DNA from: Gracilariopsis chorda
Lineage: Eukaryota; Rhodophyta; Florideophyceae; Gracilariales; Gracilariaceae
Assembly (NCBI GenBank): GCA_003194525.1
Contig: NBIV01000014.1
Coordinates: 372,001 to 436,000, forward strand
DNA length: 64,000 nucleotides
Direction: 5' to 3'
The notes beneath the pieces were generated by a model. That model was given only the letters and a program-made list of their open reading frames with translations. It had not been told where the DNA came from and did not search any database. A program made the translations under genes and the position numbers. Positions 1,139 to 42,191 of the stretch are shown here, piece after piece. The first letter of the stretch is position 1. Every line of letters begins with the position of its first letter.

Positions 1139-4100
1139 TGGGGGGGCGGGGTTATGGCGCACCATCACTGACACGACCTCGAAGAGTGGTTTAGTGCACG
1201 GTTGCAGTACCGCTGGTACTGTACGGGCGACACGCGCGTGCACGTTTTGTTGCGCGGAAACGTCTCACGATTTGAAGAAATAGATACTGTTTTTTTACAA
1301 GAGAGTGGATGGAGCGCGGACAATGTGGCGCACTTTCTGCCTCTCAGGCGGGGGAATCGAATGCACTTGGCTGTCTCTGTTCTTTTTCGTTCATTTTTGT
1401 TTTGGCTGATTTATCTAACAGCAGTAGTGAAGTAAAGTGGTGCGCGCAATGGCTGACGCATTACCTCAAGCGCGCGTGTTGGGTGTGAAGGGAGGGAGTT
1501 ACGGGCGGAAGAGGTTTAGTGCTCGCACTTGTGTTCTGCTGCGCGGCGCTAACCGCCCATCCGAAATTTCGGCAGCGCGGGATGGGTGTGTTGCAAGGGG
1601 GTGCTCATGGGTGGCGGCCCTTTCGAGAGCGGAACCGTGGAACGGCGCAATTCTTTTCATGCCACGTGACGTTGGTTTTCTTCCGTCACGGAAGCATATG
1701 CTGCGTGACACTGTAAGCCATGTCGCGCCGTGCGCGCGCTCATATTTGAATTTTGAATCATTCCGCCCACCGCCGCTAGCAGCACAAATCCTATTCTGCA
1801 TCAAACAAACCAGCCATATCCTCGACGCCAAATATATACACAAACACAGCACATATTGTTTGGTATATTCTCTCTGCGCTGCACGGCAGCACGCCACATG
1901 TGTAACACCAGCGTTTAATGGACGAGTGAGGTCTGGCTCAACCGCCTGCCACAACCCAGCACAACTCCCCGTTTAATACGGGGCAACGCTTCTAACCGCA
2001 ATCCCACCCCTCTTCATTAGAGAAGCGAAACCCAAAAGTTCCAACTATTAAAGTTACAACGCTACCCTTCTAGCCGTTAGCCCTTATCATCGCTGCCGTT
2101 GTAAGTCTACTTACCCACATCGATATGCGGCATGCACAGTGCCGGAAATATGCTTATAAACCAACTTCACGCACGATTAATCTTCACACTCAACAGCCCC
2201 ACAACTGAGTCATCCTTTGAAGCACTCGCATGTTTGATAACAGACAACTGCACATTCGCCGCTGTAAATATCCTGCCAGAGATAGTTGAGTACCAATATA
2301 ACTTACTAACGAGTAGACACAATACTGTATCGCTAACTTAGTCTACACCTCTTCTGATTTCCAAACCACTGCTCTGTGCCTATCCTTTCTTTGGGTTGCC
2401 ACTGTTTTTCACCAATTCGTGTATTGCTTTTCTACCTGACCCATATTAACTCACCCGCTTGAATTAAGTGTTGCCTCCACTATCCACACAACTCGGGCAC
2501 CACCAAAGTCACTTTGCACTTCGAACGTACTGTCGCACGAACGCAAATTAATTCCACCTTAGCACTGCATTACTCATGGACCATGAGTCATGGTTAGGGA
2601 AAGCTGTTTAGCCTTCCAATGTAATCGTCGCCTTTGGTTCACATCATGAGCCGCTTTACCATGTTGCCATACACGCCTACATGCACCAGCAGCGCAGCAA
2701 TACCACTGTCGTTCTTATAACTTTGCACTCAATTTAGCCAGAGGTTTCTTTCTTTCACCCCACGTTCCTTTAATGCGTTCATGATTTTCTCAAAGTCTGG
2801 GTACTCAAAAGTGGACATCGCAAGCTCAATGTCACATTTTGGCTTCCATAACGCGCTGGGAAACTGTGTCCATACTCAGCATGATGCGGAAGCAATCACA
2901 ACAGTTTCTTCTTCAGCGTAGAAACAGTGTATCAGCTCTCACGCCTCTCCGCTTAGCCATTCAAACGCTCTTTCAAACGGAAAAAACGCACAAGTGTTAT
3001 CGACTGAAATGCAGCAATATGTCCAACTTCACAGCTCGCCAATCACCTCTATCCATGAATTGTTTAATTGTCCGAAAGCCTCATGCATGCGGCACCGACA
3101 GTAGCGTTACCCTCACATTGCCAAGGCACTCTCGTTCTCACTGCTAACAAGCCCACCACATAACATACAGTACAGCACAACGACATTCGGCTTGCCGGCT
3201 TGTTGGCATCGCCCTCATCATAGTGTGTGCCGTGCACGCACCACTGCGTTACAATTCTTGCCTCGCGCCGACGTGACCGCAGCTACGAAGTATAGTAATA
3301 CCCTGAGAAACTCGCGATATCCAACAAATAAGCGGCAGTTATTGAAAGTTACACATGCTTTTTTTGAAAGACGGCGGAGATGAACTGGAGGCAAAAAAGG
3401 AAGCTTCTTGGTCATGTCTCGTGTGCGTGTCTCATGCATCTGAACTTCCTTTTTGCACAGTATTTGTTCCTACGATACTTTGACACGGCACTTGCTCGCC
3501 TTGTCTTGGAACCCCTTTTTGAGACGTCGAGGACATAATTGCGTCAAATAACACCGCAGAATAATTGCTGCTACGCAATGACATTCTGGGCTGAATGTTG
3601 TCGCATTTTCGTGCACCTTAATCGGATTGATCTTCAACCACATCAACACATTTAGCGTGCTCCTTTCTTCTTGTGCAACCAACCGTCAATGAATCATACG
3701 TATTGTTGGCTAACCAGCAAAGCCCACTGTGGCCTTCATGGCCTGCAGAACCACAAAGCATCTGCACAAGCAAACTTCCACAAACAAAAAGCATGTGGAA
3801 CAATATCTGGAACAAACTACAGTTATCATCTCGGGCGTAGACTGGTGAGAGTTCAGTTGCAGAACGTGCGTTGTCTGATGCCTTGAAGATTCCTGATCCA
3901 GGGCACTCGCCCGGTAATATCGTGATTGCCGGTTCATGTCAGTCAAATGGAGAACTGCGCAAGTGATACAGGGTCCGCACGCATTGAACGATCTGCAACA
4001 AACCTGCATTTCTTACGCCATGTCTTGTGGATGATGAACCTTTAGGTTTTACTGCAAAATGTGCTTACCCAGGAGCAGCTACGTCGTAGTAACCTTGTCC

Positions 4101-11352: not shown

Positions 11353-14300
11353 ATGGAGCAAAACAAAGCGTCTGACTACGTAGATATTCTCCCAGAACAT
11401 GAACTTTATGAAACCTTTACGTCGTTCTGGGAGAATCTTGAAAAGCGTACGCAAATGCGCATCAGTGATGGCTCTGCGAGTTCCGAAGTCCTTTTTGCGG
11501 TTGTGAAGGACCATGTAGCCAGAATCTTGATCGCAGAAGGCAAAGAAACATCACCGGTTTCTTTGGTACACAGTTCAAAACCTGACTCGGAAATGTGTAG
11601 CGATTTGATCTCAACAGCTGTTTTGAACATGGTACCTTCTGTTGGTGTGGCTTTTGCCTCATGTTCTATTGGAGTGATGCTGACAAGGCTATCGAAGTCA
11701 TTCAAGGGAAAGAAGGGAAACATACCGGAAGAGGATTTGGAAGTGTTCAAGAAGTGGTTTACCTTTAAAGGTAATGGTGATACAGAGATAAACACCGTTC
11801 TAGTCCCATTGAACATGTCTAACAGCCATTGGGGTGTTTTGGTAGGGAAGAAAATTGTCAATGCGGCGCGAGGAACGCAACGATGGACGGTTTGGTTTGG
11901 AGACAGTCTTGGAATGTCTGTTGATCGAAGGATTATGAAACTGTTCTCTTTCTTGTTTCCCTTTTGCCTCACAGGAGATGAAGCGCTACGTGCGGTGATA
12001 TCGGAGCGGAACTACATGCTACAGGTAAAAGGGTTTAAGCGACAAAAGGACTCGCACAGCTGTGGTTGCTATGTTGTTTCCCTTTTCACCATGTTCAGTG
12101 CGGACCACGGCTGTATCCCGAAGCGAACCTACGCCTCTGGGTACAGCCGAGCATTGACTGAGAGGATTCGATGGATGTCCATTAGAATCCGGATTCTACA
12201 CATACTCATGGCGAAGGAGTTCTTTCAAACCGACATTGTTACTGAAACAATGGTCGTACGGCTCCGGTCAGAGCATCGTTTAGAACTCCTTCGCATGAGG
12301 AAGGAAGGTAAAAAACGGCAGCGTACGAAACGAAGCGTGGAGCGGAGCATTGGGATGCAGACTGGAAAGGAAGAAGCTGGAAAGGAAGAGGGAACGGATG
12401 TGAATACAGTTCTGGGAGAACGAAAAGCAGGAGAAGGAAAGGTCGTGGATCTTCAGCCAATGCCGTTGGGTACGCGCGACTCTGAGGCGCGTGCTATACG
12501 GAAAAGCCAGCGAACAAAGCGTGTTCATGAGCTGAACCAAAGTTCTGTTCAGAGCAGTGGGATGTGTCTACCCCTGAAGATTCGCATGAAGCGACGAGTG
12601 CAGTTTTCTGATTCTGCTCCGGTTGTAGCGGACATTGTGAACACATTGATTGAGATATGTGTATCACAGCGCTCCGAGATGGTGCACAAAGCGCTAGGTG
12701 AGAAAACTGGAAGAAGTTCTGAAGTAATTGGAGCATCAGGTGTAGAAGAGGAGCAGGAAATGATTCAGACTGGAGAAGGTAGTGAAGTAGACATGGAAAT
12801 TGACGGACATTCACCAGCAAAGACGATCAGTCGGACACAGGCACAGGTAGAAGTTGAAGCTGAAGAAGGAGCGAAGGATACCGCGGCGCCTTCCGAGCTG
12901 AACGCAGAAACTGAAAAACATATTGAAGAGAAGAAGCAGGCTTCTGAGAATGGTGGTCAAGCTCAAGAGCTCAATGAAGAGCTGGCAGCCTGTTCTGACG
13001 CTCAGATACAGGAGAAGCCGCACATGGAGCTACCATCAATGACTATGTGTGAAGGACGCACTACCAAGACCGGGTCATGCACTGAGGATCAGGCAGACGT
13101 CCAAGAGACATTTGAAAACAATGGAAGGCGTTTATGGGTTGATGTGAAACTTGAGGACGGTGGTGAATGTAAGACAGAACTTGCGATGTCAAACGAGAGG
13201 CTTGTCTCAGCTCTGAAAGGTTTAAAGGAGGTCTTTGACCTCCCTGCACTGGTTGCCTACATCGCTAAGAACTTTGGCTACCTTTATGGTGTACAATACT
13301 TCTCAGTGTTGCAGACGAGGAAGTCGAGGTCGTCTGCGCTGCTCACCGGAAAATTGCGGTGTCTGCGGCACAAGTCGCAGTGCCGCTCCAACATTCGAGC
13401 AAAGTTCTATCCCATGGAGAGATGTTGGGTAATTGAACAGGACCTGATACACACGCACACACCCCAACAACTCCCATGCCCCGATGATGTTGTAAGAAGG
13501 AGGTTTGAGGGCATTCGCTCCTCTTTAGCCTCCCGTCTACAAGAATGGGAAGAGCACATACGGAAAAATGGAGAATATGTACGTCTGTCATGCATATTTC
13601 GAACCATACCCCCCTTCCAGGGAGCCGAGTTCTACAACAGCTCATCATGCTACCTCCTAGAGCATTCACATGGTCCTTTATCTCAAAGCAATGCAGAAAC
13701 AGGAAGCGAAGACGATATGGCGTATGGCGACTCCAGTGGGGCTGAGGACTTTTATCCCTTCTATTGCGTGTTGCATAGCACGAAATGCCCTGAGAGGGGA
13801 GGTGTTTTTGATGGCCGTGCTTCGCAAAGAGCAGTTCACGAACCCAAACCCGAGCTTTGGAAGCAACACTCCTCGGTTTCACAGGAAGGAGGTAGGCCGT
13901 TTTCCAATCTACCGAAGAGGCCGCAGCAAGGACCTATCTCAAGGGAAGGCATCGGGAAAGGTGGCGTAAACGATGTAAAATGCTCGGATGGACTTCTGGA
14001 TAATGCGTTTAACGTCGAGAGTGGCGTAAGAGGCGATTTTGGCATTAGCTCTTTTGAAGCTGACCCCCCTGCTGCTTCTCCGAACTCCTCAACACAAACA
14101 GTGGACGCGAAATGCGAGCGTGCACGCCACAGCGCTGTGGGCGCCGAATTAGGCTCAAAAATGAGTGAGGAGAGTGAAACTCTCAACGCAAACGTTGCAT
14201 ATGCGCAGCAGGTTTCAGATGAGCAATCCGTTGAAGAAGAGGAGGCGCTGCTGATTGATCGATTCTTAGATGACGAAGAAGAGGTTCCTTCATGCTTCTT

Positions 14301-17094
14301 TGAAGACTCTGATGGTGGCATCCTGAATGAAGAAGAATCAGAACCAAAGGAGAAAGATGTCCTTGGAGAGAAAGACGAAAAGTACTGGACAGAAGATGGT
14401 GATGAAGAACTGGGCACGGAATCCGTACAGAACACGATACCGAATGAGAGAATTGAGGAGTGTTTTAAAGCAGCAGTCTTAGCCTATCTGGAAACCCTTC
14501 CTCTCAATGCTCCTGGTGTCACGGTTCTGAAGGAAGTTCAATTTATCGCGGACTGCTTCGGGTACAGCTTATTCGTAAGGACTTCTATATACTTTGGAGA
14601 ACGAAAGCGATCTCCGGATAAGGCAAAGTCTCCCAAGAGTCGTGGTGCTGAACGTGGGAATAGAAGGGTGCTGAAGAAGGGAATCTTGAAGTGCGATCAA
14701 TACAATAACAAGATGACGCGATGCCTCTTCTCGATAACGATTAAGACGGAGGATTCTGGGCAGGAGGAAGATGGTGGAATGATCTACGTGGCTAATTTAA
14801 ATGGTTGTAAACATGGACATGGTCCCTCTGGGAGCTTTGGTATTAGACATCTCAAGCCGCAAATGCGTTCTGAAGCGATACATATGACGAACGATTTGCA
14901 TATGAGCTTTAGAGATACCATACGATACCTGGAAGACAAGTACAATCAGAAGATTAATCCGGTATCGGCGAGGAAGAAGTTGAGGTATGCTTCCTCCACA
15001 AGCAATCCCCGCGATTTGGAATGTGTAAGGTTGTGTGATCTGCTCTTTTCGTTGAGCCAGGAGGATGCAGGGAATAAGGGATTCTTCGCTGCGGATGATT
15101 CGGGTAGGATGAAGTACGCTTGTTGGTCGTTTCGAGAGTGGATGGAAGACTACCAGAAGTTCGGCATTGTTCCGGGGGTATCTATTGATTGTAAAGCCAT
15201 AGCCAATAGATACGGTTTCCCTCTGGTCACCATTAATGGAAGAGCCAATGATGGTCATGTGTTGACATTTTTCATGGGGTATATGTGCTCCGAAACAGAA
15301 GAGGACTTCGTACGAATTCTGTCCTACTTCAAGTCTATAGTCGCCGTCTCACCGGCGATGGTAGTGATGGACCAGAACACTGCGTGTATAAATGCAGCTG
15401 AGAAGGTGTTCAATTCGTCCTATATAAGCCTCGACGAATGGCATCTGAACGAGAATCAGAAGAAGAATGTGGCCAATTGGTGTAGAAAGATTGGTAAGAT
15501 GGAGTGGATGCACGATATGAAGAAAGACCTGTTCAACCTCAGAAAGTCATATACGTCGGAAACGTTTTTCGAAAGGAGAAGAATGCTAGAATGCAAGTAC
15601 TTTGATGCTTTTGACGATCGTCTCCCTGTGTGGTATAAGTACTTGTACCACTATAAGCCGCATATGCTGGTGTCTTGCTTCCGAAACGCGGCTATACCTA
15701 CCCGTTACATGTTCCAAGGAACTGGCTACACCGAATCTTCTAACTCTGCATACAAGAAGATCATTATATCGAAGAAGATTCCCTTGTGCAAGGTTCCTTT
15801 GGAGGTTCGGCGTATATCCCAAGAACGGGCTGATACCCGGAACTTGGAGCTTGTAAGAACCTTATCTTCTCAAAGTGGGAGATATCGGAAGACAAGAGAG
15901 CTTGAGCACTTTCTACCTGTAGAAGTTGTAGACAGCCTGGTGGCTGAGTACACGAACTACGCCTTGGCGCACTTCGTAGATTTGAGCTTTAAGCCCTCGA
16001 AGAACTACATTCTTTCCAGCACAGAGGTTGTGGATTATTCACAGGAAGCGTGGCCAGAAGCAATCAGAAACCTGGAAAGTAGTTCAACCCCAGCAATGGG
16101 ACCTGTAGCTCGCTTTAAGTTGAAATGGGGAAGCCATCTGAGTCAGAACCGGAATGCGTCGGTGGATGAAGAGCTCTCATCACAGGAGACTGTTGTGCAA
16201 TTCTCAAAAAGGTATACGGGGTCGGGGGATGACGTTAAGGCAGAGTTTATTGGTGTCTGTTCCTGTGGGCAGCCCTGGTCCGTTGGTTTTGCTTGTCGTC
16301 ACATGGTTCGATGTGCTGTGGTTTATCAGGAAGAACGTCTGCGTTTCCCTGAACTACGAAACATACTAGGATACTTCATACCTCTTGAAGCGCTTTTCTC
16401 TACATACTGGAGAAAAGATACTTCTGCTATGACAGTCCCATACTTGGCGAAACTCAGGTCAGAGACCCGATACTTCAACAACGAGGAGATGGATTACCGA
16501 CTACGCCGTTTTGATGAGTCGACGGAGAAAGAGTTTATCCCCATTGACTCAGATATACTTAGAACCAGTAGAGAAGACTCGGAAGTAGATGGGTACAATA
16601 CGTACATGGAAGGAAAAAACCTCTACGATGCTTTACATCGACAAGCTACTGGAATTGGACGTGTTGCGGTGAGTGGAGTTCTACGTCTTTTAAGGGATGC
16701 CATCGCAGACATTCAGCAAGGAAAAGCGACACACTTCGAAGCTAGAGGTACCTTTAAAACAAGGCTGGCTTCATTAACAGAACACGCGGAAGAAACAGAG
16801 AACACTGTCACTTTACTGCATCCATCGTCTTCTACAAAAGATTTCAGTTCATCAGGGATCCGTTCGCCAAACAATGGACGCCACAGAGCACAACGGAGAA
16901 AGAAAAGCTCCTTGGAGCGCACGAGAAAGCGAGCGAGGACAAGCCCACATTCATCCCAGGAAGTGTCTCAGAAAGACTGTCACCCACCTTCAACATCCTC
17001 AGAACCAGCTGTGACACCCTCAACTTCCATAGCCCAAGACGTGCAAGACAAAGCACTTCGAATTATGTCAAAGTCTCTCGGACACATCCACTAG
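11353..17094 (+). CDS. MULE transposase fused to an N-terminal Ulp1/SENP-type cysteine protease (1,913 aa)
   Basis: The ATG at 11353 has G at -3 and G at +4. Domains in order: residues about 90-250 form a C48 (Ulp1) protease fold with His159 (NSHWGVLV), Asp184 (FGDSLGM), Gln231 and Cys237 (RQKDSHSCGCYVV), so the full catalytic set is present. Residues 290-600 are Lys/Arg- then Glu-rich linker. A first zinc module has C670, C677, H700 and H702; a second has C1114, C1124, H1154 and H1156. Both resemble the FAR1/WRKY-GCM fingers that bind MULE ends. The DDE core shows D1279 (GVSIDCK), D1340 (VVMDQN), H1364 and E1461 (GYTESSNS). A SWIM finger C1636-x-C1638-x9-C1648-x-H1650 follows, then a basic Ser-rich tail (RAQRRKKSSLERTRKRAR), a likely nuclear signal. 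Transposase and protease roles follow from the families; SUMO or another Ub-like substrate is inference. Ulp1-MULE associations are known in plants (Kaonashi-type elements). Confidence 0.93.
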   Translation: MEQNKASDYVDILPEHELYETFTSFWENLEKRTQMRISDGSASSEVLFAVVKDHVARILIAEGKETSPVSLVHSSKPDSEMCSDLISTAVLNMVPSVGVAFASCSIGVMLTRLSKSFKGKKGNIPEEDLEVFKKWFTFKGNGDTEINTVLVPLNMSNSHWGVLVGKKIVNAARGTQRWTVWFGDSLGMSVDRRIMKLFSFLFPFCLTGDEALRAVISERNYMLQVKGFKRQKDSHSCGCYVVSLFTMFSADHGCIPKRTYASGYSRALTERIRWMSIRIRILHILMAKEFFQTDIVTETMVVRLRSEHRLELLRMRKEGKKRQRTKRSVERSIGMQTGKEEAGKEEGTDVNTVLGERKAGEGKVVDLQPMPLGTRDSEARAIRKSQRTKRVHELNQSSVQSSGMCLPLKIRMKRRVQFSDSAPVVADIVNTLIEICVSQRSEMVHKALGEKTGRSSEVIGASGVEEEQEMIQTGEGSEVDMEIDGHSPAKTISRTQAQVEVEAEEGAKDTAAPSELNAETEKHIEEKKQASENGGQAQELNEELAACSDAQIQEKPHMELPSMTMCEGRTTKTGSCTEDQADVQETFENNGRRLWVDVKLEDGGECKTELAMSNERLVSALKGLKEVFDLPALVAYIAKNFGYLYGVQYFSVLQTRKSRSSALLTGKLRCLRHKSQCRSNIRAKFYPMERCWVIEQDLIHTHTPQQLPCPDDVVRRRFEGIRSSLASRLQEWEEHIRKNGEYVRLSCIFRTIPPFQGAEFYNSSSCYLLEHSHGPLSQSNAETGSEDDMAYGDSSGAEDFYPFYCVLHSTKCPERGGVFDGRASQRAVHEPKPELWKQHSSVSQEGGRPFSNLPKRPQQGPISREGIGKGGVNDVKCSDGLLDNAFNVESGVRGDFGISSFEADPPAASPNSSTQTVDAKCERARHSAVGAELGSKMSEESETLNANVAYAQQVSDEQSVEEEEALLIDRFLDDEEEVPSCFFEDSDGGILNEEESEPKEKDVLGEKDEKYWTEDGDEELGTESVQNTIPNERIEECFKAAVLAYLETLPLNAPGVTVLKEVQFIADCFGYSLFVRTSIYFGERKRSPDKAKSPKSRGAERGNRRVLKKGILKCDQYNNKMTRCLFSITIKTEDSGQEEDGGMIYVANLNGCKHGHGPSGSFGIRHLKPQMRSEAIHMTNDLHMSFRDTIRYLEDKYNQKINPVSARKKLRYASSTSNPRDLECVRLCDLLFSLSQEDAGNKGFFAADDSGRMKYACWSFREWMEDYQKFGIVPGVSIDCKAIANRYGFPLVTINGRANDGHVLTFFMGYMCSETEEDFVRILSYFKSIVAVSPAMVVMDQNTACINAAEKVFNSSYISLDEWHLNENQKKNVANWCRKIGKMEWMHDMKKDLFNLRKSYTSETFFERRRMLECKYFDAFDDRLPVWYKYLYHYKPHMLVSCFRNAAIPTRYMFQGTGYTESSNSAYKKIIISKKIPLCKVPLEVRRISQERADTRNLELVRTLSSQSGRYRKTRELEHFLPVEVVDSLVAEYTNYALAHFVDLSFKPSKNYILSSTEVVDYSQEAWPEAIRNLESSSTPAMGPVARFKLKWGSHLSQNRNASVDEELSSQETVVQFSKRYTGSGDDVKAEFIGVCSCGQPWSVGFACRHMVRCAVVYQEERLRFPELRNILGYFIPLEALFSTYWRKDTSAMTVPYLAKLRSETRYFNNEEMDYRLRRFDESTEKEFIPIDSDILRTSREDSEVDGYNTYMEGKNLYDALHRQATGIGRVAVSGVLRLLRDAIADIQQGKATHFEARGTFKTRLASLTEHAEETENTVTLLHPSSSTKDFSSSGIRSPNNGRHRAQRRKKSSLERTRKRARTSPHSSQEVSQKDCHPPSTSSEPAVTPSTSIAQDVQDKALRIMSKSLGHIH

Positions 17095-31849: not shown

Positions 31850-32676
31850 TGTGGTGCAATGCCCAAAGGGGAAAAACACCGAAAGACGTTCGGGATCTTC
31901 CTCTCACGAGGTGAACCCAGTTGGGTAGAGCCCTCCCAGAGGTGTCACGGCGAAGCCGGTTTGTAAGACCAGGGACACCTGTCGCGACTCGCGCAGGGAG
32001 GTGAAGGTGAAGAATTGGTATCCGCGTGAGCGGGGTGTGATCCTCAGTAGAGGTATGTTTCCACGTAAGTGGGGAAGTGTGAGCGGATGCGCACACGAGG
32101 GCCGCGGATAGCGGGAGATGTTACCCTAAAAAAAGGGGGAAAAGGAAGGGCGAAGAGGAGGAAGAGAGGACGATGTGAGTCGCAAGAGCGACGAGCAGAT
32201 ACGGCGATGCCGGTAACAATATCCCTATACAGGGCGAAACACCAATGCAATTGGAACAATTATACTCCCAAGTATGGGCTTCTTTAGATGTGCAAGGGGG
32301 TTAGATGTCCCGTGGTTCACGGCGTTTCCCTCCAAGGAGGAGTAGAGTACGCGCGCAAGTGGCAACAACTAGAGCCAGTTCCCCAGGTTGGGGTCCCTTG
32401 TTGGGGAAGGTTTACTGGTGCGACGGCAGTGCGCCGTCGCACTAAGTACTAGCTTCCCAGAAATGGGTGTGAAAATAATAAATAATACTAACTAAAATAC
32501 TCCACATTTCGTGGCAACATCCACTACTGTGGCCAAACCGCCAATTGACCCAAAACCGTATCCCACGTGTCCATATCCACCATAGTGGGGCGTAGTTCAT
32601 ATACACACTACACAACCGATAATATCGGGAAAGCGTTCAAGCACCAAGAATCCCTCCCTGAGGGCGTTGCACTTCA
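31850..32676 (-). repeat. Gypsy LTR, left copy (3' LTR)
   Basis: 827 bp from TGTGGTGCAAT to TTGCACTTCA in plus sense. Directly followed by the minus-strand polypurine tract. Contains a 10-bp-stem hairpin (GTGCGACGGC / GCCGTCGCAC) near 32420. Confidence 0.95.
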
Positions 32677-32692
32677 TATCCCCCCCCTTAAG
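32677..32692 (-). promoter_or_regulatory. Polypurine tract next to the gypsy 3' LTR
   Basis: In minus sense AAGGGGGGGATA abuts the LTR start TGAAGTGCAA, the position used for plus-strand priming in LTR elements. Confidence 0.8.
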
Positions 32693-32733
32693 ACGGGAAA
32701 ACGATCTGGGACGGGGAGGATTCCCAGACGAAA

Positions 32734-33165
32734 ATGGGTGATAAAAGCGCGTGCTCTGTCTCCGGTTCTCCGGTAAATCCCTCTGCACCAGAGTCATCAA
32801 GCACACAAACGACAACAACAGCCACCCTCCAAAAGGGAAAAACGAACGACGACAACAACATCAACAACCACAGCCAACCTCCGAGACTTCTCGGGCGATA
32901 CACCACCGGTTTCCGGTCAGTTCCCCTGCCTCAGGGCGATCGAAATCCGGTACAACCGGGGAATATGGCTGCTGACCCTTCGGCGGCAAGTGCCGGACTT
33001 TCTATTCCCAGCGGGGTGACGGCGAATGAAAACGAAATCATCGCACGTTTCCTCCGGTGTGCCGGTCTTAGCGCTGCCAAGGTATCGGGGGATGTCACCA
33101 CCATGGCGGACGCGTTGGCCTACCGCCTTGCTGGGGGTTACGCCCCGGACGATGGGGGTGAGTGA
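32734..33165 (+). CDS. Antisense ORF inside the gypsy element (143 aa)
   Basis: An ATG-started frame (AAAATGG context) runs opposite to the element's own genes, in the roughly 680-bp space between the chromodomain and the 3' LTR. The product begins Ser/Thr/Asn-rich (MGDKSACSVSGSP) and ends with a small helical part (ARFLRCAGLSAAKVSGD, ALAYRLAGGYAPDDGG). No domain is recognised. Antisense ORFs in this position are known in some plant gypsy elements; function here is unknown and chance cannot be excluded. Confidence 0.35.
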   Translation: MGDKSACSVSGSPVNPSAPESSSTQTTTTATLQKGKTNDDNNINNHSQPPRLLGRYTTGFRSVPLPQGDRNPVQPGNMAADPSAASAGLSIPSGVTANENEIIARFLRCAGLSAAKVSGDVTTMADALAYRLAGGYAPDDGGE

Positions 33166-33356
33166 AACCTCTAGTCCAGTTTCCTGGTTCTTCTTTCCCT
33201 GGCTATGCCAGTTAGTGTAGTGTAGTATTGTGGGGAGCTAGCTGCTCCCTTGAATAAACTTTCCCGTTTAGAACGGTGCTTCTCGGTTGAGTTCCCCGTC
33301 TTCGACGGACCTTGTCTTGTTATCCTTTCCTTTCGCTCTCCGCTCGCGCGGCAACG

Positions 33357-34289
33357 TTACCCAACTTGGGCATTAACCAGCGTGGCTGGGGCTGCAGTTC
33401 CCGTTTGACGGTGGTATCGCAGGACCTGCGACCGTGGGAGGTGTTCGATTGGCTCCCACGTATCCCCACTGGGGTCATACCCGTACCAGTGGACGCGGTA
33501 TTGTAGAATACCATCCTGGTCCCAGGTGTGTCCGACAAGTCGGTCTACTACGAACTCTCGTTCGTAGACCTGCCGGCCGTGCCGGGTGGTGGTTGTAATC
33601 CCTGGCGAGGGTTGCCCGCGGTGCGGTATAATGTCCCTTAGCAGGGTGTTCGGCGATAACTCCGACGTTGCCGTGCGCTGTCCTAGTGGCCACTGCTCAT
33701 GCGGGAAAATATCCCTCAAGAGGGTGTGTGGTGTCACGGTTTTCACCGGCAAGTGGTTCCCCAGAGGGGTGTCGTTGTTCCCGTCTTCACGGTAGGCCGG
33801 GCGAACCGCCAGTCGGCGGGGGAATTGGGTTCCGCCTTCGCGGTTGAGCTCACGAACCGCGAGTTTGCGGGAAGATGACCGCTCCTGCGGGATCGGCATT
33901 TCCACAATCCCCTGGGGGGTCCCGTGCGACACGGTGATTGGGTGGCAAACCGCCTCCCTGCCAGGCGCACGAGCGCTCTGCACCATACGTTCCGGCGATG
34001 CCGTGGTGTCCCCGGCTACTGACGGGTTGCCTGGGGCTAACTCCGGTACACCGGTATTTTGGTCAAAATTCCCCTTTGGGGGGTGCCGGGCAGGTGCCGA
34101 TGATACCCTTTTCAGGGGAATTGCCGCTAAGCGCGGTGCACCATCTCCATGAGGAGGAGCAGCGTCCGGTACTACCGGTTTCGAGCGTGCGATGGCGCGC
34201 GTTTTTTCCCGAGTTCCTCGGTTCTTCGCCGCAGCGATGCGGGGGTTGGCGCAAATTATTCCCCGTAGCGGGGGCTTCGATTCCGTCAA
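33357..34289 (-). CDS. Gypsy Pol carboxy end with chromodomain (fossil)
   Basis: A Pro/Arg-rich linker is followed by a clear chromodomain near the carboxy end (about 33390-33560): EFVVDRLVGHT, then LQYRVHWYGYDPSGDTWEP with the conserved W and Y and the DxTWEP element, then IEHLPRSQVLRYH. In chromoviruses this tail targets integration to particular histone marks. Confidence 0.8.
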   Translation of the reverse strand: MTESKPPLRGIICANPRIAAAKNRGTREKTRAIARSKPVVPDAAPPHGDGAPRLAAIPLKRVSSAPARHPPKGNFDQNTGVPELAPGNPSVAGDTTASPERMVQSARAPGREAVCHPITVSHGTPQGIVEMPIPQERSSSRKLAVRELNREGGTQFPRRLAVRPAYREDGNNDTPLGNHLPVKTVTPHTLLRDIFPHEQWPLGQRTATSELSPNTLLRDIIPHRGQPSPGITTTTRHGRQVYEREFVVDRLVGHTWDQDGILQYRVHWYGYDPSGDTWEPIEHLPRSQVLRYHRQTGTAAPATLVNAQVG

Positions 34290-36213
34290 CGACGGGAGGC
34301 GTTTCCGGTGCTTGCGAGCCAGGGCTTAAAGCTTCAACTGCGGCTTGGCTGCCTTTTTCCCCAGGTTGGGTGTGGGGATTTCCCAACGGCGCTGGTGTAT
34401 CTGGGCGCCTCTTCTCCGCAAGGCGCGGGTCTGATCGACCTGATTGAACCGCTTCCGCGGGGACTTCCGCCAACGGCGGCTTCGAGGCATCGCCCTGCTC
34501 AGAGGATTGGGGGCAATCGTCACCATACTCCCTTATCGGGGATCCTTCCCTGACAGGGGTGTGCGGTAGTTGCGCTTCAACTTCCCGTGTAGCACGGTAT
34601 GTTTTCCGCGTTTGTGACGATGCCTCAGGGGATGGATTGGGAGATTGCCTTTCCGCTGCTGCGGTATTGGAGTGAGGCTTCTCGTTTTCCCGTGACAAAC
34701 GGTGTATTTGCCGCTTTTGCGGGGCCTGCGCGTCTGGTTCCTGTTGCACAGCACTGCCCGGGAACGGGGGATTAGTGTCGCGTGACATACTCCGTGCTCC
34801 ACGGTCAGTGTTCCGTATGTTACGGTGTGTTTCCCGTTGCGACGGCGATATCGTTCCTCGAAAACGAGTGTTCTCCTCCCCCTCCTTAGACGGAGCGGCG
34901 GGATAAGGGATAACATTCCCCGCCTGGCGGGTATAGATGCGCACCAGTGGGGCAGACGTGGTAGGGGCGGGCGCTGAGGGGCCCGAATTACCCGGCTGAG
35001 CCGGTGAGTCCGACAGAGTCGGTAGGTCTGAGAGTCCCCAGCTGGGGTTTGGTAGTACCGTAGGTCTAGTACTTCCGGATGGTTCCGGTGTTGCAGAGTC
35101 CGTAGAAACGGGGTTGCCTGGATCCAGGACTACCTCTGACGAGGGAGGAGGGGCAAGGACAATACGATCACGGGAAATCCGTTCGTGCGTGTCGCCCATC
35201 TCTACCACGACAGTGTCGGTGTTAACAGAGATGACCTTGAAGGGTCCATCCGCCACAGGCGAGAGTTTGTGACGCTTCTCCCGTTCCGGGTTGTAGTACT
35301 CCTTCCTGATGAAGACGTAGTTATTTGCCCGAATCGGGGGGGTCTTTCCACGCAAGCGAGCGTCAAAATCCCGCTTGTAAGCGGCTTGGGCCCGTGCCAT
35401 AGACTTCCGCGCAGCGGGGACCAGCTTGGAAAGCCATTGCTTCCATTGCTGCCGGTAGATACCCACAGATGGGAAATTGTCCAAGGTAGCTTGGGGTTCC
35501 AGCGCCACAGGCGGGGGTGTTCTAGATAGAACCAACTCGAATGTCGAAACTCCGGTAGTCCGGTGTACCTGCGTATTGTATGCGTAGGTTATCGCATCAG
35601 CGTACAGATCCCAATTCGTTGGGTGGTCAGCGACGTAGGAACGTGACGCCGCGAGTAACGTCCGGTTAAACCGTTCAACTTGCCCATTACACTGGGGGTG
35701 GTAGGTAGTCGTGAACAAGTTCTTGACATCCAGGATGCGACAAACATCCTGGAAGAACTTGCTCACGAACTGCCTCCCGTTGTCGGAGAGCACCTCCACA
35801 GGGGGACCGTAGAAAAAAATCCAGTGCGTCACCAGAGCCTGGGCCACCGTGAGAGCGGTTATCCTCCGAAGAGGGACAGTCCGTACCAGCTTAGAAAAGT
35901 GGTCGGTGATGACAAGTAGAAACTTGTTTCCACGTTTTGTGGTGAGTAGTGGTCCGAGAAGATCAATTGCGATAACCTCGAGTGGCGCCCTTGCGGGGAA
36001 TAGTTTCATCTTCTTCGCATTTTTGCGGAGCTTGACCCGATTCTTCGCGCATACGCTACAAAACCGCACAGTTGCGTAGCAATCCACCGCCATTGCGGGC
36101 CAATAGAAATCCCTTCGCAGGGTTAGGTAGAGTTTCCTCCCACCTGGGTGACCTCCAATGGGGGCGTAGTGTGATAGATGTAACACCCGCGATTGCAGGG
36201 AATGTGGTACCAC
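34063..36213 (-). CDS. Gypsy integrase region (fossil)
   Basis: Zinc-binding HHCC part (HLSHYAPIGGHPGG, CSVCAKNR), then the catalytic core: AIDLLGPL, LSDNGRQFVSKFF and HPQCNGQVERFNRTL. A GPY/F-like carboxy part follows (KLSPVADGPFKVISV), then a long Pro-rich linker leading toward the chromodomain. Confidence 0.85.
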   Translation of the reverse strand: MVPHSLQSRVLHLSHYAPIGGHPGGRKLYLTLRRDFYWPAMAVDCYATVRFCSVCAKNRVKLRKNAKKMKLFPARAPLEVIAIDLLGPLLTTKRGNKFLLVITDHFSKLVRTVPLRRITALTVAQALVTHWIFFYGPPVEVLSDNGRQFVSKFFQDVCRILDVKNLFTTTYHPQCNGQVERFNRTLLAASRSYVADHPTNWDLYADAITYAYNTQVHRTTGVSTFELVLSRTPPPVALEPQATLDNFPSVGIYRQQWKQWLSKLVPAARKSMARAQAAYKRDFDARLRGKTPPIRANNYVFIRKEYYNPEREKRHKLSPVADGPFKVISVNTDTVVVEMGDTHERISRDRIVLAPPPSSEVVLDPGNPVSTDSATPEPSGSTRPTVLPNPSWGLSDLPTLSDSPAQPGNSGPSAPAPTTSAPLVRIYTRQAGNVIPYPAAPSKEGEENTRFRGTISPSQRETHRNIRNTDRGARSMSRDTNPPFPGSAVQQEPDAQAPQKRQIHRLSRENEKPHSNTAAAERQSPNPSPEASSQTRKTYRATREVEAQLPHTPVREGSPIREYGDDCPQSSEQGDASKPPLAEVPAEAVQSGRSDPRLAEKRRPDTPAPLGNPHTQPGEKGSQAAVEALSPGSQAPETPPVVDGIEAPATGNNLRQPPHRCGEEPRNSGKNARHRTLETGSTGRCSSSWRWCTALSGNSPEKGIIGTCPAPPKGEF

Positions 36214-36330
36214 AATCTGTGGGCGGGCTTCGACCTTTCTTACGAGGTAGCCTTTGTCGTTTACCCCGAAAGGGAGATCTTCACCACCGTTGATACGGGC
36301 ACGAATTCTCGTACAGAATGGGTCGCCGAA

Positions 36331-39066
36331 TTATTCTCGGATCATTTCTTCCGGTGATACCGGTACAAAGTTTCCCGGTAACGGGTTCTCAGATTTATCT
36401 CGCGATGCGAGTAGTTCGTCAAAATAAGCATCCTCGTCCCAGTTTTCTGGCCTAGCCTCGACGGCATATTCCGGATCATCCGGGTCTATAGCCATGAAAC
36501 ATGGGACTTCATCATCCTCCGTTGGGAGTGCTTCCCCACTTGTGGGTAACCGCGACAAAGCGTCGGCCTGGGTGTTCTGCGCACCCTTTTTATAAATGAC
36601 TTGAAAGTCATATTCCGCGAGGCGGAGTCTCCAGTGCATGAGGCGTCCCGACGGGTCGGAGATATTCATTAACCATCTCAATGAGGAATGATCCGTGTAC
36701 ACGGTAAAGTGAACTCCCATAAGGTAGGGGCGCAGAGTGGTCATCGCCCATACGACGGCGAGGCACTCTTTCTCCGATACGGAGTAGTTCCGCTCATGAA
36801 CATTGAGCGAACGTGACCAATTACCAATTGGATGTCGTTCCCCCTCGGGGGTGGTTTGAAAAAGAGCACACCGGACTTGGTAGTCGCTCGAGTCCGTATC
36901 TACGGAGTATGGCAACCCAAGTTTTGGGAGATGTAGGATTGGTGCTGATGTGACAGCCTCCTTTAAGGAGTTAAAAGCTTCCGATTGCTCGGGCGTAAAT
37001 GTTCCCAATTTTGGGGGGTTCCCCTTTCGCAACAACGCGTTCAGGGGCGCTGCAGTATCCGAAAAGTTCGGGATAAACCGTCGATAGACGTTGACCAGCC
37101 CCAAAAAGGAGCGCAGTTCCGTTTGAGTACGGGGTTCTTTCGCCTCAACGAGGGATTTGACTCGAGCTTTCTCGATCGCTAACCGTCCAGGACGGATAAT
37201 GTGACCCAGATACTTCACAGTATCTGTGAAAAACTCGCATTTCCTCAACTTGAGAATAATTCCCGCATCGCGGAGTACGGTCAGCACGTCTCGGACGTGA
37301 GTGAGATGGTCGTCCAACGAGTTGGAGAAGATGATAATATCGTCAAGGTAGACCAGACAGCTCCGCCACTTAAAGCGGTTGAGTAGAATATCTACTGCAC
37401 GCTGAAAGGTGGCTGGGGCGTTGGTTAACCCAAACGGCATCCGCTTGAAGCGGTAGGTTCCTGCATGGCAGGTGAATGCGGTTTTGTCGCGATCCTCCTG
37501 TCTGACAGGTACTTGCCAATATCTCCAATTGGCATCAAGGGCCGTGAACACGGTGGCGTCTCCAAGGGAGTCAATGCACTCGTCCATACGAGGGATGGGG
37601 TACGTGTCCCTAACAGTCATGGCATTGAGCCGGCGGTAGTCGACACAGAACCTCCAGGTTCCGTCGGCCTTTAAAGCCAGTACAACTGGGGATGCCCAGG
37701 GTGATTGAGCGGGCTCAATCACACCTGTGCGGAGCATCTTGTCCACTTGGGACTGCTCCTTTTCCCGAGCTTTCGGACCTGCCCTGTAAGGGGGTTGTGC
37801 AACCGGTCGCGCACCGGGGATTAAATCGATCCGGTGTTCCGTTGCATTAATCTCGCCAAGCGAGCCATCCCACATTGTGGTGAATTCCCGTAACATAGTA
37901 CGGAGTTTGTGGCGGTGTGACTCTGGCACGTGGCTGAAGTCCAGCGCTTCAAGTGCTTTTTCCGGATCAATCCGGTCGTTGCTCGATAGAGCATTGTCCT
38001 GTGGAACAGGTTTGGTTCGCAATTCCGAGTTACTCGGTATGTTCGACGCTGAAGTAGCGGTTTCCTCCCCCTCCTTAGACTTGACGTCTTCCGACGGCGG
38101 GGCGAACTCCTCAGAAGAGGTGGTAACTCCGAGTACATCGGCGACTGTCATCTTTGTTGGAAGCATTCCCATAGGATGGGGGGTTACACTCCCAATTACT
38201 TGGTGTTTGACCAGATACTGGGGGTGTTTGCCAAGGTTGGCAACCAATATCCGGAAAGGAACATCCGGGGAAATGGAGACAATTCCATTAGCCAGCGCCA
38301 GCTGGGATTTCTCGTACAACGAGGCGAGGGGTTGTATAACCCGAAGACCGTGTTGACGGGAATTTACCTGCACCCAGACTTGGGACTCAGCCGGTATAGA
38401 AACCGAGGCAGCGACGCGGAGCTTTGTGGACTCGCGGGACGCGGGCGGTGGTTCCTGCGCAGCAGGGAGCGGAACTTGTTTCCGAGAGGACCGCTTTAGC
38501 GGGCGGCGAACAATCGGAACCGACGATCCGTCGTCAAGTTCTACACGCCTGAGGCGGGGCCTGATTGCGTCGACAAATCTGTCGCAGTAATCACATCCCA
38601 GTATGACTGGTGCTGCCAGTGAACGGCAAACGATGAAGTCCAACTTCACCACAGAGGTACCAAGTCTCACGACGAGGTCCACTGTGCCCACCGTTTGTAA
38701 CGGATTGTTGTTCGCATCCGAAATGTCGGGGACCGCGTCAGAGCGGATACGAGACCGCACAAGCGGGGGTAACAATGATTCCACAACAAAGTTGGGGCCT
38801 GCACCTGTATCCAGGACGGTGAGAAACCTCACCATAAACTGGGGGTCAAGGCCAAGGTCGGCATAGACCTTATAATTGCGCTTGGCCAAGACCAAGACTC
38901 TACCGGGAATCCGGGGATTTTTACTCCGTATCCACGGGCGACGCAACACACCGAGGTGCGCAGAGTCCGCGTCAGCGGTGTCTTTCCTCGAGAGGACTTT
39001 GACCGGGGAGCGAGGCGAGGACGCCTCGGGCGCCAACAGCCTCGTTCTTGAGGACGCCTCTCCCAA
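36331..39066 (-). CDS. Gypsy protease, reverse transcriptase and RNase H (fossil)
   Basis: Aspartic protease motif VLDTGAGPNFVVE, then reverse transcriptase blocks (WRFCVDYRRLNAMTVRDTYP; FKRMPFGLTNAPATFQ; CLVYLDDIIIFS), then a gypsy RNase H (VDTDSSDYQVRCALFQ; YTDHSSLRWLM; TQADALSRLP). Typical Ty3/gypsy order and spacing. Confidence 0.9.
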   Translation of the reverse strand: MGEASSRTRLLAPEASSPRSPVKVLSRKDTADADSAHLGVLRRPWIRSKNPRIPGRVLVLAKRNYKVYADLGLDPQFMVRFLTVLDTGAGPNFVVESLLPPLVRSRIRSDAVPDISDANNNPLQTVGTVDLVVRLGTSVVKLDFIVCRSLAAPVILGCDYCDRFVDAIRPRLRRVELDDGSSVPIVRRPLKRSSRKQVPLPAAQEPPPASRESTKLRVAASVSIPAESQVWVQVNSRQHGLRVIQPLASLYEKSQLALANGIVSISPDVPFRILVANLGKHPQYLVKHQVIGSVTPHPMGMLPTKMTVADVLGVTTSSEEFAPPSEDVKSKEGEETATSASNIPSNSELRTKPVPQDNALSSNDRIDPEKALEALDFSHVPESHRHKLRTMLREFTTMWDGSLGEINATEHRIDLIPGARPVAQPPYRAGPKAREKEQSQVDKMLRTGVIEPAQSPWASPVVLALKADGTWRFCVDYRRLNAMTVRDTYPIPRMDECIDSLGDATVFTALDANWRYWQVPVRQEDRDKTAFTCHAGTYRFKRMPFGLTNAPATFQRAVDILLNRFKWRSCLVYLDDIIIFSNSLDDHLTHVRDVLTVLRDAGIILKLRKCEFFTDTVKYLGHIIRPGRLAIEKARVKSLVEAKEPRTQTELRSFLGLVNVYRRFIPNFSDTAAPLNALLRKGNPPKLGTFTPEQSEAFNSLKEAVTSAPILHLPKLGLPYSVDTDSSDYQVRCALFQTTPEGERHPIGNWSRSLNVHERNYSVSEKECLAVVWAMTTLRPYLMGVHFTVYTDHSSLRWLMNISDPSGRLMHWRLRLAEYDFQVIYKKGAQNTQADALSRLPTSGEALPTEDDEVPCFMAIDPDDPEYAVEARPENWDEDAYFDELLASRDKSENPLPGNFVPVSPEEMIRE

Positions 39067-39083
39067 AGGGGAGACTCCCTCAG

Positions 39084-41258
39084 TTAGTTTTCCGCCGTCG
39101 GCGGTGGGTTGGTTTCCCCGAAAACGAGTGCTTCATCCCGTTGACGGGGGCTTCTATCCGCATAAGCGGGGGTTGCAACGGATGGTTGCGTGATCTCCCG
39201 AATCGGGGTGTATGAAGCTTGCCGCGCAGGCGGGGTCTGTGGTAGGGCGTGAAAAAAGTCCGTTTTAGCACGGAGGTAGGAAGCCGTCGAGACGGAACGT
39301 TTCTCCTCTGGAGTGAGGGCCTCATAATTTGCCACCACCTTGGCCATATCCTTCAGTGAACAAATACACTGAGGAGAGGTATGGCCATGGGCATAACACA
39401 GGTGGCAAATGAGAGCCAGCACCGCGACACGCGGATTATTATTCCGAGTATCGGAGAAGCGAACCGCAGGGCGGGTGTCAGTCCATCCAGGCCGTTGATA
39501 ACGGGATTGACCGTTTGAAAACGGGAGTCGTTGGGGTTGAACCCGACTGTTACCACCGTATAGAACGGGATCTTCTGTTCCCGTATCATGGGTCATCTCC
39601 GTCGTTGACGGTAACTCACTGGTGGGTATCGACACACCATCCCCCTGCACCAAATGCACGGTATCAAATCCCTGTCCAGGGTTCCCATCCGCGGTGAGCG
39701 GGAGAGAGGAAGCTTCGCTTTCCAGCAACAACGCCTTGGCGGATTTCGACCGATTGTTCGGAGTTCTTGCACGAAGTGCATCCCCTTCCGCTCGAGCGTG
39801 TTGGACCAGCTCGAGGTAGGTGATCCTCCGCTTTTCCTCCCGATAACGGGTAACTAAACTCCGGATTGCCGGGTCAAGACCATCAATGAACATGGTACTG
39901 CGCTCCCCAGCGGGGTATACGTTACCACATCTGTGGAAAGCCTTGTTAAGGCGCACCGAGTAATCGGTCTCGGTCTCTCCAGCACGCTGGCGTGTATCTC
40001 GCAAAGCGAGGATAGCCTGCTGAATAGCGGTGTTGGTGGCGTAGGAGCGCAGAAGATACTTCACAGCCTCCGGCCAGCAAGTAGCTCCTCCCTCGGAGGC
40101 GCGAGAAGATCCTCTGACAGAGGTGTATTGGTCCTCCGCCACTCCCCGTAAGAAATACGGTAAAGCCAAATAGGCTTGTCCCTCATTCATACCGAGGATA
40201 TCGGCCTCCGCTACAAAGCGGGATAGGAAATCCAGTACTAGGACTGGGTCCTCTCCAGTAAAATACTGGTTGCGGAGCGAGAGCTGCATTCGCTTAATGC
40301 ATTCTCGCACCTTTCCCGTACCACGGGGCGTGCGTCCAAGTGACGAGTCTTCGAGCCGGTAGTACCGGTATGATAAAAGCTTCCGGTAATCCGGGTTTGT
40401 CGGTTTCAATTCCCGGAGACCGGGGTGTCTTCTCCCCTTCTGGCGGGTTCGGACCACACCTTCAGTGGCTGATGACCGCTTCGAGCGGGAGGAGTAGCCT
40501 CGCTTCTCGTCCTCCGAGTCGGAGTCCGAGGAGCTCGAGCTAAAGGAATGGTTTCGGGATGAGTCCGACGATGTCGAAGAATCGGAGTCCAAATATTTTC
40601 GGTGGTGTTTCCGTCGATGACAGCGTTTCTTCTTCCCAGCAAGCTGGTCGTTGTGCGATGCCTCGTTTACCGGATCACCCGGGGATGGTTTGTCCATGAG
40701 GACGAACTGCTCCAGCGTCTCCAGGCGGGCACCAATCCGATCAAATCGGGCTTCAGCTCCTTCGATGAAGGTGGCGGGTTGTCCCAAACTCTCCAACACG
40801 GAGTTGACGTCAGACCGTAGAATACGGAGTTCCTCGGCGACCTCCTTTACGGGGGTTGCCGAGACCACCTCTTGGAGGGATTTTAGTTCCCCTACAAGGG
40901 TGTCATGGGCGGTCCACAGAGCGCGGACCTGGGATTCCAGGGAAGTCCCCTGGGGGTTTTTATCGCCCGTTCCACGAGGGCTTGAAGCCGCGACAGCAGG
41001 AGCAGGCCAGGGTGCCTGGGGCACTGCGGCAACAGCCGGAGTCGATGCTGCATTCCCCTGCGGGGGTGATAACGAGGGCAAAAGGAGGTTCCGGGGTTCC
41101 CGGTCGGGGGTATCATTCCGCGATGAAGCGGGGCCAGTACGGCTGGAACTTGTCCGTATAGGGATACGGGGTACGAACCGAACTTCGGGAGTGTCCGCGT
41201 TGTCGCGGGAGCGACTACGCGTAACCACTGGCTCCGCATCGGAGGGATTTCTCGACAT
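39084..41258 (-). CDS. Gypsy Gag (fossil)
   Basis: 724 codons. A Ser/Asp-rich stretch (SDSSTSSDSSRNHSFSSSSS) precedes the retrotransposon Gag helical core (ALPYFLRGVAEDQYTSVRG; TRQRAGETETDYSVRLNKAF), and a CCHC knuckle CHLCYAHGHTSPQC lies near the carboxy end. Confidence 0.85.
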   Translation of the reverse strand: MSRNPSDAEPVVTRSRSRDNADTPEVRFVPRIPIRTSSSRTGPASSRNDTPDREPRNLLLPSLSPPQGNAASTPAVAAVPQAPWPAPAVAASSPRGTGDKNPQGTSLESQVRALWTAHDTLVGELKSLQEVVSATPVKEVAEELRILRSDVNSVLESLGQPATFIEGAEARFDRIGARLETLEQFVLMDKPSPGDPVNEASHNDQLAGKKKRCHRRKHHRKYLDSDSSTSSDSSRNHSFSSSSSDSDSEDEKRGYSSRSKRSSATEGVVRTRQKGRRHPGLRELKPTNPDYRKLLSYRYYRLEDSSLGRTPRGTGKVRECIKRMQLSLRNQYFTGEDPVLVLDFLSRFVAEADILGMNEGQAYLALPYFLRGVAEDQYTSVRGSSRASEGGATCWPEAVKYLLRSYATNTAIQQAILALRDTRQRAGETETDYSVRLNKAFHRCGNVYPAGERSTMFIDGLDPAIRSLVTRYREEKRRITYLELVQHARAEGDALRARTPNNRSKSAKALLLESEASSLPLTADGNPGQGFDTVHLVQGDGVSIPTSELPSTTEMTHDTGTEDPVLYGGNSRVQPQRLPFSNGQSRYQRPGWTDTRPAVRFSDTRNNNPRVAVLALICHLCYAHGHTSPQCICSLKDMAKVVANYEALTPEEKRSVSTASYLRAKTDFFHALPQTPPARQASYTPIREITQPSVATPAYADRSPRQRDEALVFGETNPPPTAEN

Positions 41259-41363
41259 GAGAAAATACCGTTACGATGGGAAACGATCATGGAACTTCTG
41301 GTGAATAAAAACAAACCTCGTAAGAGGGAAAACAAAAACCGATTCTTGGTCTGGAGACCACTT

Positions 41364-42191
41364 TGTGGTGCAACGCCCCAAAGGAAAGAAACACCGAAAG
41401 ACGTTCGGGATCTTCCTCTCACGAGGTGAACCCAGTTGGGTAGAGCCCTCCCAGAGGTGTCACGGCGAAGCCGGTTTGTAAGACCAGGGACACCTGTCGC
41501 GACTCGCGCAGGGAGGTGAAGGCGAAGAATCGGTATCCGCGTGAGCGGGGTGTGATCCTCAGTAGAGGTATGTTTCCACGTAAGTGGGGGCGTGTGAGCG
41601 GATGCGCACACGAGGGCCGCGGATAGCGGGAGGTGCTACCCTAAAAAGGGGAAAAAGAAGGGGCGAAGAGGAGGAAGAGAGGATGAAGTGAGTCGCAAGA
41701 GCGACGGGGGCGAACGGCGATGCCGGTGGACAGGACTCCCTATACAGGGCGAAACACCAATGTTATTGGAACAATTACACTCCCAAGGATGGGCCTCTTT
41801 AGATGTGCAAGGGGGTTAGATGTCCCGTGGTTTACGGCGTTTCCCTCCAAGGAGGAGTAGAGTACGCGCGCAAGCCGTAACAGCTAGAGCCAAAATCCCC
41901 AGGTTGGGGTCCCTTGTTGGGGAAGGTTTACTGGTGCGACGGCAGTGCGCCGTCGCACTAAGTACTAGCTTCCCAGAAATGGGTGTGAAAATAATAAATA
42001 ATATTAACTAAAATACTCCACATTTCGTGGCAACATCCACTACTGTGGCCAACCGCCAATTGGCCCAAAACCGTGTCCCACGTGTCCATACCCACCATTG
42101 TGGGGCGTAGTTCATATACACACTACACAACCGATAATATCGGGAAAGCGTTCAAGCACCAAGAATCCCTCCCTGAGGGCGTTGCACTTCA
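41364..42191 (-). repeat. Gypsy LTR, right copy (5' LTR)
   Basis: 828 bp, same limits as the left copy. Several of the differences between the two copies that I checked fall in hairpin loops (for example ccaat-gca-attgg versus ccaat-gtt-attgg). Confidence 0.95.

Follow-up and report, generated by a model that had tools for sequence, protein, structure and literature searches.

A carpet of short Watson-Crick hairpins in a clade of Ty3/Gypsy elements of the red alga Gracilariopsis chorda

The window analysed here, 64,000 nucleotides (nt) of the Gracilariopsis chorda genome (assembly GCA_003194525.1, contig NBIV01000014.1, positions 372,001 to 436,000), contains at 31850-42191, on its minus strand, a Ty3/Gypsy-type retrotransposon with long terminal repeats (LTRs), which we refer to as family F1 and which holds far more short perfect hairpins than chance would give. 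The hairpins have few standard sizes, mark a clade of the alga's Ty3/Gypsy elements, change in a compensatory manner between families and are nearly free of wobble pairs. The reading that we favour, with a probability of about 0.4, is a weak aggregate constraint on mini-hairpins in a DNA strand formed as the element replicates. More broadly, we would give slightly better than even odds to a second, non-coding layer over the whole retroelement, in which hundreds of Watson-Crick-only DNA mini-hairpins shape the single-stranded cDNA and are fitted around the protein code largely by third-position co-changes, or are else written by the reverse transcriptase (RT) through short-range self-templating. 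Either would amount to a DNA-level architecture of the whole element genome. Pervasive structure with a DNA-type pairing rule would mean that the short-lived cDNA, commonly regarded as a passive intermediate, is under structural constraint; the element also shows protein-coding sequence bearing a dense second code, mostly at synonymous sites. No report of such a hairpin carpet in a retrotransposon was found in the open-licence PMC literature.

Hairpin excess and geometry

A first-pass annotation of the window, made from the letters alone, had listed 17 hairpins with a stem of 5 base pairs (bp) and a loop of 3 nt (5-3-5), and all 17 of these 13-mers are present where it placed them, each occurring once in the window; it counted five hairpins within 34166-34295, where its own list has four. 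Its estimate that chance yields about one 5-3-5 hairpin per kb was right, and so was its claim of a several-fold excess, the interior of the element (counted on 32695-41376) holding 77 against a mean of 9.2 in 20 dinucleotide-preserving shuffles. Inverted repeats with 4-bp stems and loops of 3, 4, 5 and 6 nt number 143, 136, 132 and 80, against about 37 each in such shuffles. The excess is restricted to short loops and reaches beyond the interval first described into both LTRs; no such short-loop excess was seen in the window flanks (1-31850 and 42200-64000). Altogether, 292 non-overlapping hairpins (stem of at least 4 bp, loop of 3-6 nt) occupy 3778 of 8657 interior bases and start in every codon phase (91, 92 and 109), as had been proposed.

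Codon-preserving shuffles, 300 per open reading frame (ORF), left the 5-3-5 excess standing, with 24 against 3.3 in gag, 29 against 3.8 in the protease-RT-RNase H frame and 11 against 2.7 in the integrase frame. The host genes RHD3 (1 against 1.9) and DUF747 (1 against 1.8) show none under the same shuffles, and neither do the neighbouring copia (1 against 1.7) and MULE-like (4 against 4.9) elements, so that the claimed restriction to the Gypsy element holds for 5-3-5 hairpins; it is less strict for the 4-bp stems of the copia element, which are mildly raised (39 against 26.9 in codon-preserving shuffles, z 2.3).

Among maximal F1 hairpins, 70 are 5-3-5 (6.1 expected), 94 are 4-4-4 (25.9), 66 are 4-3-4 (26.9) and 30 are 5-4-5 (6.5), the 4-4-4 form thus being no less common than the 5-3-5 form. 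Stems of at least 6 bp contribute little: with loops of 3-5 nt there are 22 in F1 against 5.8 expected, and 8 against 8.3 in the related families F2a, F2b, F3 and F4 pooled, which is fewer than random lengthening of 5-bp stems would yield (one in four by our estimate). Ends of the type CC...GG recur, since 169 of the 311 F1 stems that have 4-5 bp and loops of 3-5 nt start with CC, against 8.7 expected, and 20 start with GG, against 8.6. In F1, CC-N(7-10)-GG occurs in excess and its interiors are complementary, while the interiors of GG-N-CC stay at background. The other carrier families favour stems starting with CC, TC, CT or CG, those starting with G being little or not enriched, and in F3 CC..GG pairs by themselves are hardly enriched. 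Hairpin centres in F1 rarely lie less than 16 nt apart (this holds for 16 of 241 spacings, where random placement would give about 50), and no loop motif is evident in the hairpins. In one F1 copy (L005), a paired +1/-1 shift surrounds a CCC-GCAA-GGG hairpin at alignment columns 3507-3517, the overall length being unchanged.

Clade distribution and maintenance of pairing

Of 68 loci scored, L001-L038 and L067 carry the carpet, with ratios of 2.45-4.23 for 4-bp stems, and L039-L066 and L068 lack it (0.91-1.41), a few of the latter reaching about 2 for 5-bp stems. Amino acid identity over the best RT stretch is 94-100% for F1 copies, 64-82% for the other carriers and 35-43% for the remaining loci; second RT stretches in carriers outside F1 go down to 47%. 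The carriers form six families, namely F1, F2a, F2b, F3 (L067, L080-L089), F4 (L090, L091) and F5 (L092, L093), with nucleotide identities of 0.64-0.78 between them, and an excess of 4-bp stems is found in each (1.5-3.5 kb of sequence compared per family for F2-F5). All six share one geometry, chiefly 5-3-5 and 4-4-4. As to whether further families of this genome share the property, five of the same clade therefore do, whereas nine representatives of other Gypsy families have no carpet (ratios 0.92-1.30), with a mild excess of 5-3-5 hairpins when pooled (39 against 24.3). A genome-wide property is rejected for the window flanks, the copia and MULE-like elements, the two host ORFs and these nine Gypsy representatives.

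Covariation was followed over about 1.6 kb of RT aligned for the six families, with inverted repeats with loops of 8-11 nt as control geometry; the alignment cells are not independent of one another. In 406 of 1607 comparisons, a hairpin perfect in one family is likewise perfect in the other (240 with identical and 166 with changed stems), against 70 stem-identical and 14 changed-stem cases in 990 comparisons of the control. Kept hairpins contain 220 co-changed pairs, 172 of them joining two third codon positions, with 120 transitions and 100 transversions. The pair at position 1286 of the F1 fragment, for instance, is C-G, T-A, A-T or G-C depending on the family, the outermost pair of this hairpin being broken in L090. 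Where two third positions face each other in an otherwise intact stem (521 cells), 428 are Watson-Crick, 21 G.U, 14 A.C and 58 other, in contrast to 26, 42, 15 and 67 of 150 in the control.

The fraction of hairpins kept drops from 98 of 193 at 78% identity (F5) to 26 of 168 at 64%, the control lying at 0.03-0.23, so that hairpins persist for some time and then turn over; an early comparison of F1, F2a and F2b found just 4-5 of 29 F1 5-3-5 hairpins at the same columns. Within F1, variants present in at least two copies are rarer in stems than outside by raw count (12/1364 against 73/3307), and the same applies to shared variants of LTR copies (3/246 against 24/545, columns trimmed to the LTR). 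Because of the compensatory changes and the fewer shared stem variants in F1, maintenance of stem pairing is supported. A mutational bias after insertion is not supported: variants found in a single copy are about equally frequent inside stems and elsewhere in F2a and F2b, whereas F1 stems have fewer of them and F3 stems more. The expectation that stem changes compensate while loops drift was borne out in its first half; F1 loops vary no faster than sequence outside hairpins. Hypervariable loops were accordingly discarded as a candidate: LTR copies do swap whole-loop alleles with stems kept, of which LTR mosaicism is the simpler reading.

The pairing rule was estimated on C-G-ended hairpins of the six families together, with other inner pairs intact, background subtracted and bootstrap ranges. 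Relative to A-U, pairing per opportunity is 1.24 for G-C, 0.088 (0.034-0.148) for G.U, 0.074 (0.018-0.141) for A.C and 0.059 (0.034-0.090) for other combinations; A-U comes close to G-C (0.805), and G.U scores like a mismatch. One-sided changes between families lead to G.U and A.C equally often in hairpins (427 and 426), as in isolated pairs (10180 and 10236), with 98 and 131 in CC-ended hairpins. The tolerance of G.U above mismatches expected of RNA-level structure was thus not found overall, although a small set of CC-ended hairpins points in the opposite direction. Among mismatched inner pairs of F1-F5, the commonest is C in the 5' arm against A in the 3' arm (35, against a raw expectation of 58.3), T-G being seen 14 times (51.0); this excess of C-A over T-G is a possible sign of sense-strand G-to-A change.

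In the excerpts of PMC6993869 available to us, five RNA virus sets have lambda-GU values of 1.28-10.63, GU being maintained there as well as in non-coding RNA sets, and single-stranded DNA viruses have lambda-GT values of 1.00-1.06 once recombinant regions are separated, GT being near neutral. The element follows the DNA-type pattern, that is, compensatory Watson-Crick changes with G.T near neutral, and differs from the viral genomes of those excerpts in being an LTR retrotransposon with one standardised unit of 11-14 nt repeated along its length. As G.U is usually retained in RNA structures, an explanation by simple RNA folding is disfavoured. Folding energy limited to pairs at most 16 nt apart is below that of shuffles to about the same degree on the two strands (mean z of -2.16 for sense and -2.27 for antisense).

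Selection on DNA or RNA, or template switching

As the constraint demands Watson-Crick pairs, A-T and G-C counting and G.T not, it would most likely act on the DNA of the replication intermediate, probably on its single-stranded cDNA. The clade would keep its full length, LTRs included, dense with small hairpins of standard size during the active phase of an element lineage; any single hairpin would be weakly constrained and replaceable, density being the maintained property. Hairpins of at most 5 bp might serve as easily melted beads which compact or protect the single-stranded cDNA, or block unwanted annealing, and leave synthesis unhindered. Selection on cDNA hairpins would account for the pairing rule, the turnover and the gains by changes in both arms.

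Several observations weigh against this constraint on a DNA strand. The CC...GG polarity has no explanation from DNA stability. Among CC-ended hairpins whose remaining stem is intact, the 187 pairs that join two third positions include 12 G.U, 0 A.C and 27 other. The sense-strand flanks of F1 hairpins are A-rich (A at +1 0.49 against a baseline of 0.36, at -1 0.39 against 0.24), and folding energy without a span limit (36 windows) lies below shuffles with the sense strand somewhat ahead (mean z -1.31 against -0.98 antisense). The depletion of shared variants in stems was not seen in F2a, F2b and F3 (raw counts of 1/711 against 4/2769, 8/692 against 35/2791 and 9/350 against 24/1312, respectively), and among the three double co-changes of F3, a G.T allele occurs in sister copies for two, and the third sits in an otherwise broken hairpin.

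A mutational drive is the first rival, and to our mind a rather unlikely one: during reverse transcription the nascent strand would fold back within about 14 nt, copy its own arm and return to the template, with no selection on the hairpins. According to the excerpts at hand, template switching creates and maintains RNA hairpins (PMC8794818) and perfects quasipalindromes (PMC7202029), and in a single event yields perfect Watson-Crick stems and compensatory changes, two features also seen in the element; these sources describe it for DNA replication. Stems of Watson-Crick pairs only and a fixed size range fit self-templating, as do the 100 transversions among the 220 co-changes, which lack a wobble intermediate, and one clean double co-change common to three F1 copies. 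However, the derived changes that create pairs are spread over the two arms (44 against 39), and F1 stem alleles found in at least two copies are more often single-sided (10) than double (1). The first-pass annotation had suggested an RT that perfects quasi-palindromes, from which multi-base gains in one arm would follow; these were not enriched in a small sample. Among 95 hairpins absent in the sister family, gains were one-armed in 10 of 17 two-change cases (8.5 expected) and in 0 of 4 three-change cases, numbers that are small and drawn from deep divergence. Double co-changes within families number four, of which two are accompanied by a G.T allele in sister copies and another falls in an otherwise broken hairpin.

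Genome-scale ordered RNA structure is a known feature of RNA viruses, and wobble pairs count there. The element resembles it in having structure over the whole replicon, coding and non-coding alike, and differs in that G.U behaves as a mismatch and stems end at about 5 bp. Under selection on the sense RNA, the hairpins would help to package, condense or conceal the genomic transcript. Selection for structure in this RNA had also been proposed in the first-pass annotation, and of that proposal the maintained pairing is supported and RNA folding as the selected trait is disfavoured; as G.U scores like a mismatch, such selection would need a reader that rejects G.U, and RNA-wobble selection as the main cause is disfavoured. 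In this form we hold it for doubtful. The A-rich F1 flanks are its best support, joined by the folding energy below shuffles, the 12 G.U against 0 A.C in the CC-ended subset and a pattern in gag that we take to be a zinc knuckle, but the flank bias is missing in F2a and F2b, no loop motif is evident, and wobble tolerance is near-absent overall while A-U almost equals G-C. Dispersed packaging signals (PMC6281560) offer a precedent of many scattered stem-loops on one genome. They have in common a motif that the coat protein recognises, often placed in the loop; in the element's hairpins CC...GG ends recur in F1 and no loop motif is evident.

Composition, codon usage or chance can be practically dismissed, for although the GC content of the carpet families (about 0.51-0.56) exceeds that of most other Gypsy families tested (0.35-0.51), the excess vanishes in dinucleotide- and codon-preserving shuffles and at longer loop lengths, covariation is above that of the control geometry, and L066, with a GC content of 0.51, lacks the carpet (ratio 1.01).

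It is a long-standing question whether selection maintains short hairpins or template switching writes them, and a single genome with six families, their hundreds of sites and numerous copies makes it testable here.

Element anatomy and genomic setting

The F1 element reads on the minus strand, its 5' LTR being the high-coordinate end. LTR pairing places the 5' LTR at 41364-42191 and the 3' LTR at 31850-32676, both rich in hairpins (counted for the 5' LTR on an overlapping slice), and a 5-bp target-site duplication, AAATT, lies on either side. The interior (32677-41363) bears the carpet of about 292 hairpins of 11-14 nt, mostly CC...GG-ended. It encodes, all on the same strand, a gag-like ORF of 724 amino acids (39084-41258), an RT-RNase H ORF of 911 amino acids (36331-39066; Pfam RVT_1, RT_RNaseH and RT_RNaseH_2), an integrase ORF (34063-36213; Pfam H2C2 zinc-binding and rve core domains) and a chromodomain ORF (33357-34289; PF00385). 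With flanking LTRs, RT-RNase H followed by integrase, a chromodomain downstream and a short target-site duplication, the element has the make-up of Ty3/Gypsy elements with chromodomain. The gag-like ORF shows a CX2CX4HX4C pattern, presumably the zinc knuckle mentioned above, and an Arg/Ser-rich stretch; it has homologs in Agarophyton, no Pfam match above the cut-off and no match in a structure search of the PDB by sequence. The two LTRs differ by multi-base allele blocks, some of them common to LTR copies elsewhere, a pattern resembling a mosaic of LTR subfamilies.

The assembly (91.3 Mb in 1081 contigs) contains at least 40 copies of a 1670-base RT piece 97-100% identical to that of the window, copy numbers being lower bounds since the searches score the best candidates alone. 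Agarophyton chilense has relatives at the protein level only, with a best identity of 66% for the RT ORF and 43-62% for gag; one scan each of viral_contigs and genome_contigs found no DNA relatives elsewhere. A protein deposited under a Sphaerochaetaceae metagenome-assembled genome (P0072) shares 60% identity with the F1 RT over 61% of the query, and its assignment is probably due to eukaryotic contamination.

Elsewhere in the window, the plus strand carries at 11353-17094 an ORF of 1913 amino acids in which a MULE transposase domain is joined to a peptidase domain of the C48 (Ulp1-like) type. On other contigs of the assembly, e.g., C573, C819 and C883, RNase H matches recur about every 5.68 kb, a spacing which suggests tandem arrays of another Gypsy family.

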